Assembly: GCA_017503015.1 (NCBI GenBank)
Contig: JAFVTX010000057.1
Span: 1-64,000, forward strand
Source of the DNA: Fibrobacter sp.
GTDB taxonomy: Bacteria > Fibrobacterota > Fibrobacteria > Fibrobacterales > Fibrobacteraceae
Reading direction: 5' to 3'
Length of the DNA: 64,000 nt
How positions within the stretch are numbered: the first letter of the stretch is position 1; each line of letters starts with the position of its first letter. A model generated the notes under the pieces. The model had not been told where the DNA came from. It made no database searches and saw nothing but the letters and a program-made list of their open reading frames with translations. Both the position numbers and the translations under genes were made by a program. Shown piece after piece: positions 50,491 to 53,241 of this stretch.

Positions 50491-50715
50491 GGGGGAAGCC
50501 TCCCCCTCGCTTCTGCGACTTATCGTCCCCGCAAACAATCTCGTCATCCTCGCGAAGGCGAGGATCCACAAACTTCTTAGCGGGGATCTCCTAATCGCAT
50601 CCGCTACCCCCTCTCCTAGGGGCTCTGCCCCTAAGACCCCGTTCCTCTTGTCATGCCCGCGCCTTTTTTCGTCATCCTCGCGTAGGCGAGGATCCGCTAT
50701 CATCTTGGCAGGCAA
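50491..50715. repeat. Mosaic intergenic repeat (A-B-C-B)
   Basis: A: GGGGGA-AGCC-TCCCCC hairpin (50491-50506) right after the GH13 stop. B: GTCATCCTCGCGAAGGCGAG (50543-50567). C: TACCCCCTCTCC with TAGGGGC-TCT-GCCCCTA hairpin (about 50601-50640). B again: 50650 and 50671-50695. No coding potential is visible. Confidence 0.65.
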
Positions 50716-50936
50716 TCTCCTTTAACAAATCTTTCCCTCGATGTGAATATCTCTCGTTCACAGGGACTCACTTTGTTCGACTGTTCACTCGAGAAACTCA
50801 CATCTCGGTCGAAAAACAAGCGGTGGGTTCGGGAAATAAATGCTTTTGTGGGCGAAATCTGCTTTAGCAGGTTTGGCTAGTTGCTACAGGAGGAAACTCT
50901 TGTGACTGTTAGTCCCTGCGAGTTTCCGCCGAGAGT
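50716..50936. repeat. Left copy of a long direct repeat flanking the small-gene array
   Basis: Shares three blocks with 52912-53228. Block 1 (50716-50746): AACAAATCTTTCCCTCGATG region. Block 2 (50768-50807): identical 40 nt beginning TCACTTTGTTCGACTGTTCA. Block 3 (50887-50936): identical 50 nt beginning CAGGAGGAAACTC with nested stems. The segment 50937-50996 has no gene. Confidence 0.75.
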
Positions 50937-50996
50937 CCTGATCACTTGCGTATTATCGGAAATTTCCAGGAGTTATAACAGTTTTTTTCTGTTCTG

Positions 50997-51032
50997 GTTT
51001 TATCCCTGCTCATAAAGAGCCACTATAAGACT
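50997..51032 (-). repeat. Leader repeat copy D (last, without a gene)
   Basis: Minus-strand AGTCTTATAGTGGCTC then TTTATGAGCAGGGATAAAAC. It starts exactly at the stop codon of the gene at 51031-51264 and is followed by no start codon. Confidence 0.75.
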
Positions 51033-51264
51033 ATTTCTTTTTACGAAAGAAATTTGCCCAGTAAGGATTTTCTTTATCAAAGAGTTCCTTTTCTTCTTGC
51101 GTGAAATTCTTCGGATAATCTCCGAATAGAAACAAAATTTTTTTCTTATCAAAGGAAACCGCATATAATCCATGATAATCGACATAATCGACCCACCAGA
51201 TTTTATCATCTTCGTTGTTCTTGTAGAATTCGATTCTTTTTGTCTCTTTGTCAACCATGATCAT
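51031..51264 (-). CDS. Small cytosolic protein, unknown function
   Basis: 77 residues (MIMVDKETKRIEFYKNNEDD start). Rich in Lys, Asp, Phe and Tyr with an alternating pattern (DKIWWVDYVDYHGLYAVSFD, KKILFLFGDYPKNF) suggesting a small beta sheet; no signal peptide. I chose the ATG at 51264, 10 nt after AGGGA of its leader repeat; an ATG at 51285 would lie inside the repeat. A competing frame at 51000-51254 has an unlikely Lys/Arg/Ile-rich composition. Third transcribed gene of the array. Confidence 0.6.
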   Translation of the reverse strand: MIMVDKETKRIEFYKNNEDDKIWWVDYVDYHGLYAVSFDKKKILFLFGDYPKNFTQEEKELFDKENPYWANFFRKKK

Positions 51265-51268
51265 GATT

Positions 51269-51304
51269 GTTTTATCCCTGCTCATAAAGAGCCCCTATAA
51301 GACT
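51269..51304 (-). repeat. Leader repeat copy C
   Basis: AGTCTTATAGGGGCTC then TTTATGAGCAGGGATAAAAC, directly before the gene ending at 51031. GCTC-TTTAT-GAGC forms a hairpin with the ribosome site AGGGA just after it. The 69 nt between this copy and the next gene's stop hold nothing recognisable. Confidence 0.8.
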
Positions 51305-51373
51305 TGAAGAGCTTCGCCCTGAACACGTGTTCTATAATGTTTTTCCATACGCCTTTTCGGTATTAGAATCACT

Positions 51374-51952
51374 TCACCCTTTTTCCTTAAAATGCCAAAC
51401 TTCGCCGGTGCTTTTGTCAACCACCCTGGCAGAATCGAGCGTTACCGTGTATGAATATTTTTCCGATTCGAAATAGAACGGTCCGATTCTCGCATAAATT
51501 CCTTCCGGGAGATTCTTGATGCCAAAGACATCTTTTTCCTCGTTGCCAATGAAGAACATTGCCAGCCCCGACGAACAACCCGTACTAATTTCAATAGCCC
51601 CTGCATAATATGCCGTTGTATATTCTTCACAGGCAATCAGCGAATCAGGAGCAAGGCATCTCTTAGTGTACCTAAACGGAACGTGCCCAACGGAGTTGCA
51701 TTCTTCCGCTGCGCTGCTGGACTCAACGTTTTCCGCAGAGCTGCTGGATTCAATATCCGTCGAAGATTCGCTAGATTTTATTGAATCTATAGAACAGCTT
51801 GATTCGTCAACAGTCCCGGAAGAACTGGATTTTTCCGACAGCGGGACTGGTGTACTTTCTGCTGAAACGGAACTCGAATCGTCTCCGCATGCGGCAAAGG
51901 TTAAGAGGATTGCAGCAAAAGTTGCGTGTGCAATTGTTCTTATTTTCATCAT
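51374..51952 (-). CDS. Small lipoprotein with Ser-rich linker
   Basis: 192 residues. Signal peptide and lipobox (TFAACGDDSSS, Cys near 22), a Ser/Glu-rich linker to about residue 85, then a folded part of about 105 residues with three or four Cys (CNSVGHVPFRYTKRCLAPDS, ACEEYTTAYYAG). It ends in a beta-rich stretch (IYARIGPFYFESEKYSYTV, then VVDKSTGEVWHF). Family unknown. The leader repeat places GGGG 8 nt before the first of two adjacent ATGs (51952 or 51949). Confidence 0.7.
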   Translation of the reverse strand: MMKIRTIAHATFAAILLTFAACGDDSSSVSAESTPVPLSEKSSSSGTVDESSCSIDSIKSSESSTDIESSSSAENVESSSAAEECNSVGHVPFRYTKRCLAPDSLIACEEYTTAYYAGAIEISTGCSSGLAMFFIGNEEKDVFGIKNLPEGIYARIGPFYFESEKYSYTVTLDSARVVDKSTGEVWHFKEKG

Positions 51953-51988
51953 GTTTTACCCCAGCTCATAAAGAGCCCCTATAAGACT
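51953..51988 (-). repeat. Leader repeat copy B
   Basis: AGTCTTATAGGGGCTC then TTTATGAGCTGGGGTAAAAC, then ATG. The last codons and the TGA stop of the upstream gene (51966) are encoded by the repeat itself. Confidence 0.8.
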
Positions 51989-52427
51989 TTAGGCGCCTCT
52001 CGCCTTCTTCAACAGAAACAAATTCGCTGTTTCGACATCTATATCCCGATAAAGCGGAGTCGGCCTTTATATGGTCTAAAGGGCAATTCTCCCGAATTTG
52101 ACATTGTTCTTCATAAGTTATACTGCAGGGATCCTTGAAGCAGACGCCGTATTCGTTTATGTTACGGAGCCTCCGTGCTTTTATCGTGTCTAAAATATCT
52201 TGTTCGCATTCGCTATAGTCTTTCCCTGTCATGGCATCGTAATTAATCTCTGGAACACAATCCAAAGCTGGATCGTAGCAGTTTTCATGACAGGGGTCAT
52301 CTGTCCCGTAAGCACAAGAAAAAGCCTGCAAAGCAAACGAAGACGCCACAATGCTCGATATTCTAAAGCGGTGGCTCCAAAAAATGGATCCAACCCATAA
52401 GAATATTTTGCGAAGAAAATTTCTCAT
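51966..52427 (-). CDS. Cys-rich exported protein, possible lipoprotein
   Basis: 153 residues. Basic, hydrophobic N-terminus ending in FALQAFSC, a possible lipobox (Cys near 38) or signal peptide. The mature part has about ten Cys in a regular pattern (CHENCYDPALDC, CEQDILD, GVCFKDPCSITYEEQCQIRENC), suggesting a disulfide-knotted small domain. The final residues KSYRGSL and the stop come from the downstream leader repeat, so the original C-terminus may have been replaced. First gene of the array in transcription order. Confidence 0.65.
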   Translation of the reverse strand: MRNFLRKIFLWVGSIFWSHRFRISSIVASSFALQAFSCAYGTDDPCHENCYDPALDCVPEINYDAMTGKDYSECEQDILDTIKARRLRNINEYGVCFKDPCSITYEEQCQIRENCPLDHIKADSALSGYRCRNSEFVSVEEGERRLKSYRGSL

Positions 52428-52428
52428 G

Positions 52429-52464
52429 TTTTACCTCAGCTCATAAAGAGCCCCTATAAGAACT
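52429..52464 (-). repeat. Leader repeat copy A
   Basis: AGTTCTTATAGGGGCTC then TTTATGAGCTGAGGTAAAAC followed directly by ATG. GAGG is the ribosome site. Confidence 0.8.
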
Positions 52465-52911
52465 ACTTTCTGAATATACCTTATTTTATGCGGGTTCGCA
52501 AGCGGTTTGACGCTGAAAAGATTAGAATAAATAGATGGGTTTCTGGGATTTTGTTGATTTCCATCAGAGAAAATGTCAACGGCATAACGATTCTTTCCGA
52601 ACAAGAAAAGTTGAAAAGCGCAAGCTGACGATGTGGGGGGGGAGGGGGACGTGCCCCCTCGGCAAAGCCTTGCCCCACCATGTCATGCCCGCCTTGTGCG
52701 GGCTCCTCCGACCTTGACCAGCGTCATCCTGGAGCGCAGCGACGGGATGCATACTTTTCTTACCAACATTTTTCAGGGGCAAGTCTTTGCCTACCCCCTC
52801 TGCGGGGACACACCACCTAAAGGTGGCCATGCCCACATAAGCGCTGAAGCGCTAAGTGGTCAAAGGCCGCAACGCCCCGCACCCTCTTGTCATGCCCCGC
52901 TTGACGGGGCA
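52465..52911. repeat. Gap with mosaic intergenic repeats
   Basis: 52465-52629 holds no convincing gene. From 52630: A-like GGGGG-ACGT-GCCCCC unit, B units at 52682-52703 and 52723-52750, C unit with TACCCCCTCTGCGGGG and CCACC-TAAA-GGTGG plus AGCGCT-GA-AGCGCT inner hairpins (52790-52885), and a B unit at 52889. Confidence 0.6.
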
Positions 52912-53228
52912 TCTCCATTAACAAATCTCTCCCTCGATGTGAGCCATCCCTCGCTCGTCATAATGACTGCTCGGCTCAATCTTGTAGCTGAATCTACGAA
53001 ATCGCCTCGCTCTCGCCGACACAACTCGTTGATACGAGTTGCTTTCGGCTCACAGATTCACTTTGTTCGACTGTTCACTCGAGAAACTCACATCTCGTTC
53101 AAAAAACAAAAAAATGTGGCTCTGGATTCCAAGTGCTTTGAGGTGTAGACCCGCCTTTACTGGTATGAACCGTTACTGCAGGAGGAAACTCTTGTGACTG
53201 TTAGTCCCTGCGAGTTTCCGCCGAGAGT
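52912..53228. repeat. Right copy of the long direct repeat
   Basis: Same blocks as 50716-50936: AACAAATCTCTCCCTCGATG (from about 52919), the identical 40 nt at 53058-53097 and the identical 50 nt at 53179-53228. Between blocks 1 and 2 it carries an extra structured element at 52967-53053 that recurs at 60595-60683. Confidence 0.75.
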
Positions 53229-53241
53229 TCTGTTTCCAGTG

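Follow-up and report, generated by a model that had tools for sequence, protein, structure and literature searches.

We wanted to know what kind of array occupies part of the minus strand of a 64,000-nt stretch of Fibrobacter sp. DNA (contig JAFVTX010000057.1, called here the window; its genome is G000), where copies of a short repeat alternate with small genes. The original prediction, made from the letters alone, had proposed a gene-capture or shuffling array with a new kind of boundary element. This was right in substance, and gene content does vary at one chromosomal locus between genomes. Beyond it, sequence comparisons identify the boundary element as a CRISPR (clustered regularly interspaced short palindromic repeats)-type repeat found beside cas1-cas2, and the inserts as arbitrary fragments without a recombination site of their own. 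With a probability of about 0.85, we consider the window array to be an orphan member of a CRISPR-derived family of capture arrays in Fibrobacter-group rumen bacteria, in which an adaptation module without effector would take up gene-sized DNA. No prior description of such arrays was found in the literature searched, whose coverage mostly leaves out subscription papers and bioRxiv. The window array is laid out as follows.

52501..52551, minus strand: relic of the cas2 3' end and of the gap between cas2 and leader (local alignment score 42 against the cas2-leader region of G063; shuffled maximum 24)
52462..52501, minus strand: leader with a sigma70-like promoter (TTGCGA-17-TATATT) predicted from sequence, at a fixed spacing to the first repeat
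52428..52461, minus strand: repeat copy A, leader-proximal
51988..52427, minus strand: insert 1, 440 bp, with a 153-aa open reading frame (ORF) without Pfam family
51953..51986, minus strand: repeat copy B
51304..51952, minus strand: insert 2, 649 bp, with a 192-aa lipoprotein-like ORF
51269..51302, minus strand: repeat copy C
51032..51268, minus strand: insert 3, 237 bp, with a DUF7675 ORF
50997..51030, minus strand: repeat copy D, the last repeat, with one substitution
50945..50996, minus strand: trailer, conserved after the last repeat at this type of array

The four near-identical copies expected in the same orientation around three unrelated genes were all present, spaced 272-684 nt. Each repeat has 34 conserved nt, usually preceded by one purine (about 35 bp overall), and its ends are GTCTTAT..TAAAAC. 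Every insert holds one sense ORF, and Pfam matched solely the 84-aa ORF (DUF7675). The copies had been placed directly before start codons: inserts 1 and 2 indeed begin with ATG, and insert 3 begins with AATCATG. Copy B does supply the final residues and the stop of the insert-1 gene (...SYRGSL*), as had been claimed. Copy D, which directly follows the TAG of the insert-3 gene and had been taken for an empty end unit, is a normal last repeat with the conserved trailer after it. A GCTC-TTTAT-GAGC hairpin is present in the window copies, and its conservation across repeat variants is only partial; a strict hairpin was rejected, the GCTC/GAGC pairing being found in about half of the repeats and a compensated GTTC/GAAC in 13, with many pairs mismatched.

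Neither of the two outcomes named as refuting the prediction was observed: the repeat is not confined to this locus, and the three genes are no tandem copies of one another. Allowing up to 3 mismatches, its core was found in 62 of 101 Fibrobacteraceae genomes, many of which are metagenome-assembled genomes (MAGs); that of G017 consists of one contig of 3.1 Mb. The window genome has 10 copies, all inside arrays, on four contigs (C57, C38, C65 and C66), and no copy of the reversed pattern. These two counts, together with the 62 positive genomes, exclude a chance origin. The same anatomy was observed at 40-odd loci: a promoter-like leader, repeat-insert units in a single orientation, and a trailer that arrays at one kind of site have in common. 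The leader's spacing up to the first repeat measures 39 nt for 49 of 56 distinct leaders (37-38 nt in the rest), and the promoter is present before the first repeat alone. The window-type locus adjoins an amylase gene, and there insert 1 lies behind different leader-proximal inserts in G069 and G107; at G079 the shared insert is insert 2 (99% identical). Insert 3 has a 99.6% identical counterpart in an array of G080, and a 94.5% relative of insert 1 was captured in reverse orientation by G047. In viral contigs, the repeat was absent and Cas1 matches were distant only.

In the whole arrays of G017 and G070, Cas1 (298 aa) and Cas2 (103 aa) are encoded immediately upstream of the leader. They were assigned by Pfam and NCBIfam profiles, the type II Cas1 profile scoring 275.6 bits (cutoff 120). 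The genus search for close Cas1 genes (at least 70% identity) gave twelve intact or near-intact copies, one of them with an internal stop, and one split copy. At every intact locus long enough to show it, the leader lies right behind cas2 (G042:C48 ends at the contig edge). The search for cas9 at these cas1 loci found no large ORF. A second Fibrobacter Cas1 group, at about 45% identity, belongs to ordinary type II-C systems with cas9, 48-bp repeats and ~30-bp spacers; the repeats of about 48 bp, as in the canonical arrays at L118:2834-3756 and L110:2833-3900, are unusually long. The next relatives in 84,980 genomes (about 50%) are Cas1 proteins of Bacteroidota II-C systems, which have cas9 and a period of 65-66 nt. 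The Cas1 proteins linked to giant inserts form one Fibrobacteraceae clade (support 99/97). Their catalytic triad E149/H206/E221 is conserved and matches E149, H205 and E220 of S. pyogenes Cas1. With dN/dS mostly at 0.03-0.16 among unsaturated pairs, Cas1 is under strong purifying selection. Since the Cas1 of G017, which is of another genus, is 97% identical to that of Fibrobacter (dS 0.23), the comparison suggests that the module recently moved horizontally between them.

At five loci, an old degenerate repeat was seen upstream of cas1, 1.6-2.7 kb before the leader (L183:5246, L185:6335, L186:5913, L187:6805 and L193:839, oriented coordinates), and the cas operon itself may lie inside an older array. 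The conserved stretch behind this old repeat was considered as a trans-activating CRISPR RNA (tracrRNA) and rejected: it belongs to an ATPase gene (3' end), and Rfam gave nothing over threshold.

Pairs of related arrays indicate growth at the leader end. At the Cas1 locus shared by G097 and G058, the latter has an extra 363 bp exactly, together with one more, identical 35-bp repeat, both at the leader end. The arrays of G063 and G104 have the leader-distal insert alone in common, and in both it is succeeded by one and the same degenerate last repeat; G063 carries four more inserts on the leader side. Last repeats are degenerate generally. The mean repeat distance was 0.56 within cas-bearing arrays, 3.55 in orphan arrays and 4.97 between arrays of one genome. 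Because repeats are near-identical within cas arrays yet differ between arrays of one genome, the repeat is supplied by the array and not by the insert.

We then looked at what the inserts are. The 138 non-redundant inserts have a median of 494 bp (5-95% range 188-1943 bp, overall span 0.1-3.7 kb), and no ~30-bp spacer was found among them. Eleven match non-array DNA over their whole or nearly whole length. In array 1 of G017, dnaE (249/249 bp) and uvrA (557/557 bp) fragments match the corresponding genes of the same cell over their full length. A NUDIX fragment among the eleven matches own-genome DNA at 244/244. Donors in the same genome were found for G047 (244 bp, 100%), G080 (346, 99.4%), G088 (648, 95%), G040 (410, 91.5%) and G070 (213 of 214, 97%), and donors in other genomes for G063 (519, 96%), G026 (399, 98%), G047 (889, 95%) and G017 (950, 96%). 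At the donor sites of the eleven matched inserts there was no repeat, and donor flanks were unrelated. Insert boundaries are arbitrary relative to the donor, and inserts lie in either orientation; one source was captured twice as overlapping pieces in opposite orientation, even within a single array (407 bp, 100%). Some inserts are insertion sequence (IS) elements, and a 3.1-kb insert of G070 carries Mu-like phage head and tail genes, antisense. Insert 3 (DUF7675) has relatives within Mu-like prophages, and further ones, facing either way, in many arrays; at L176, L179 and L182 (about 2050-2360), DUF7675 genes stand antisense between prophage head genes, in a moron-like position. A 3.7-kb insert at L078:5136-8326, whose DNA is also found in G022:C52, encodes a ribosomal protection protein that is EF-G-like and, by similarity, of the tetracycline-resistance type, along with a major facilitator superfamily transporter. 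Relatives of inserts 2-4 of G063 lie in RHS-like toxin loci and hinted at a bank of immunity genes, a candidate weakened by the housekeeping captures and the few toxin hits; the PADLOC search for defence genes gave only weak helix-turn-helix matches.

Cassettes bounded by hairpins and moved by a tyrosine recombinase, as in integrons or Xer/dif modules, could also produce same-orientation sites between small genes behind a leader promoter; the hairpin is partly there, and XerC/XerD are encoded in the genome. However, the TIGR02249 integrase exceeded its cutoff in 0 of 61 genomes, the matches being XerC/XerD without the IntI-specific segment, and the repeat ends do not correspond to the attC core boxes RYYYAAC..GTTRRRY. 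Donor copies have neither repeat nor site, boundaries and orientation vary, the repeat type tracks the array and not the insert, and it is cas1-cas2 that flank the leader. An explanation of this type is largely refuted already and very improbable.

The ends of the inserts carry a signature. Read inward, A occurs at positions 3 and 4 in 58-64% (an inward NNAA bias), and AA at these positions was found in 38% and 36% at the two ends, whereas randomly chosen internal positions gave 11.5% and never more than 20.5% in 2000 draws. It is alike in cas and orphan arrays. A matching signature at both ends is what would be expected as the trace of a two-fold symmetric integrase. A decayed ordinary CRISPR array, in which break repair, transposition or homologous recombination placed the inserts at a later time and Cas1-Cas2 is a passenger, would agree with the divergence of orphan repeats, with the IS elements and with a window genome devoid of cas1. 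Nevertheless, 0 of 138 inserts are of ~30 bp, the repeat is duplicated exactly at the leader end, and the symmetric end motif and the selection on Cas1 also speak against it; we hold this origin to be unlikely.

We return to capture by an adaptation module. In the mechanism that we propose, a type II-like Cas1-Cas2 encoded directly upstream of the leader would insert double-stranded fragments of ~0.1-4 kb at the leader-repeat junction, each insertion duplicating the 35-bp repeat as in spacer acquisition, with no ~30-bp ruler and no effector. We infer from the sequences that Cas1-Cas2 carries out the insertion. The leader promoter would transcribe the first inserts, the repeat would give a ribosome binding site, and forward-facing captured ORFs would be expressible.

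Compared with the type II-C adaptation module, the Cas1/Cas2 families, catalytic residues, leader-repeat architecture and ~35-bp repeat are the same, as are leader-end growth with repeat duplication, the degenerate last repeat and the existence of orphan arrays. The differences are the ~0.1-4 kb inserts, the absence of cas9 from the module, the tolerance of self-derived inserts, the symmetric end signature and a promoter with predicted mRNA-like output. Integrons and the integrase-free cassette arrays called CALINs likewise have a promoter followed by captured genes, a fixed locus whose content varies, common orphan arrays and possible expression from a common promoter; in contrast, there is no IntI here, the captured unit has no attC, the repeat stays with the array, and arbitrary fragments enter in either orientation. 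In Bacteroidales, rAID (recombinase-associated acquired interbacterial defence) clusters are arrays of small unrelated genes with a repeated intergenic sequence and a tyrosine recombinase. They resemble the present arrays in this organization, and some inserts here resemble toxin-locus genes, but Cas1-Cas2 replaces the recombinase and housekeeping fragments (dnaE, uvrA, NUDIX) are captured too. Casposons are single mobile elements carrying their own Cas1; they and solo Cas1 share with these loci a Cas1 outside effector-bearing CRISPR, whereas here an array has grown from many unrelated inserts.

Several points weigh against this explanation. No match to cas1 was found in the window's own genome, whose arrays may be fossils. 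The state of G097 could have arisen by deletion between repeats and need not be ancestral. The 11 donors have no clear flanking protospacer adjacent motif, a weak purine excess aside. Finally, the case is drawn from sequence comparisons, and it would require a Cas1-Cas2 complex to handle kilobase fragments. As to the orphan state, the 51 nt before the window leader align to the last part of cas2 and the gap that separates it from the leader, and other orphan arrays retain up to 175 nt of the cas2-end region before their leader. Because this relic precedes the leader, the window array most likely descended from a cas1-cas2 locus. It was presumably active in cis formerly; today it may be inert, or it may be served in trans.

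A shared control element had also been suggested; it is at most secondary. The leader contains a predicted promoter, and a ribosome binding site may come from the repeat (SD-like GGGGT/GAGGT, Shine-Dalgarno, with stop codons nearby). An RNA leader copied before several genes would fit the promoter, this SD-like sequence and the orientation of ORFs: in 62 of 100 inserts the longest ORF is in sense orientation (62:38, p = 0.02), and ATG starts at most 26 nt behind a repeat number 31 sense versus 13 antisense. Yet genes in antisense and internal pieces of housekeeping genes are bordered by repeats as well, and the promoter stands solely before the first repeat. As dnaE and uvrA fragments were captured, a regulatory leader is refuted as sole explanation, and we give it hardly any credence. 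The sense bias fits partial selection for expression, and gene capture is presumably beneficial; since many inserts are fragments or antisense, it is also possible that inserts are purely a by-product. RNA-guided DNA interference by these arrays is unlikely, because essential host genes are perfectly matched and the locus has no cas9.

In a cas9-less cas1-cas2 locus of an Alloprevotella MAG from roe deer rumen (Bacteroidota; L216:10001-14150), three copies of an unrelated ~34-bp repeat, TTGAAATTATAGAATAAGCATTATGATTAAAAC, follow the cas genes. The second copy has a 1-bp indel and the third 6 mismatches, and the inserts measure about 0.56 and 2.25 kb. The Cas1 of this single locus sits on a long branch; the locus is possibly an independent giant-insert array. 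We give even odds to the broader idea of a CRISPR-derived integron, spread in Fibrobacteraceae and also present in rumen Bacteroidota, where its repeat is unrelated; in it, effector-less Cas1-Cas2 would heritably bank whole genes (own, phage or competitor), and useful ones would be expressed through the leader promoter and the ribosome binding site in the repeat. If true, bacteria would adapt through acquired genes and not guide RNAs. The current view of Cas1-Cas2 is that of an integrase under ruler control, placing ~30-bp spacers for RNA-guided immunity. A natural lineage that retained Cas1-Cas2 under strong selection after losing the effector, and that stores gene-length DNA, would separate adaptation from interference. 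Gene-capture arrays would then have a second natural origin next to integrons, and an integrase able to take kilobase cargo would become available. The spacer-length limits of CRISPR finders would hide such arrays.

Lastly, three direct-repeat blocks (80-95% identical) were observed on both sides of the window array, at 50704-50940 and 52900-53232, with a spacing of ~2.2-2.3 kb; they are possibly a duplicated intergenic region or a trace of the array's entry at the site.
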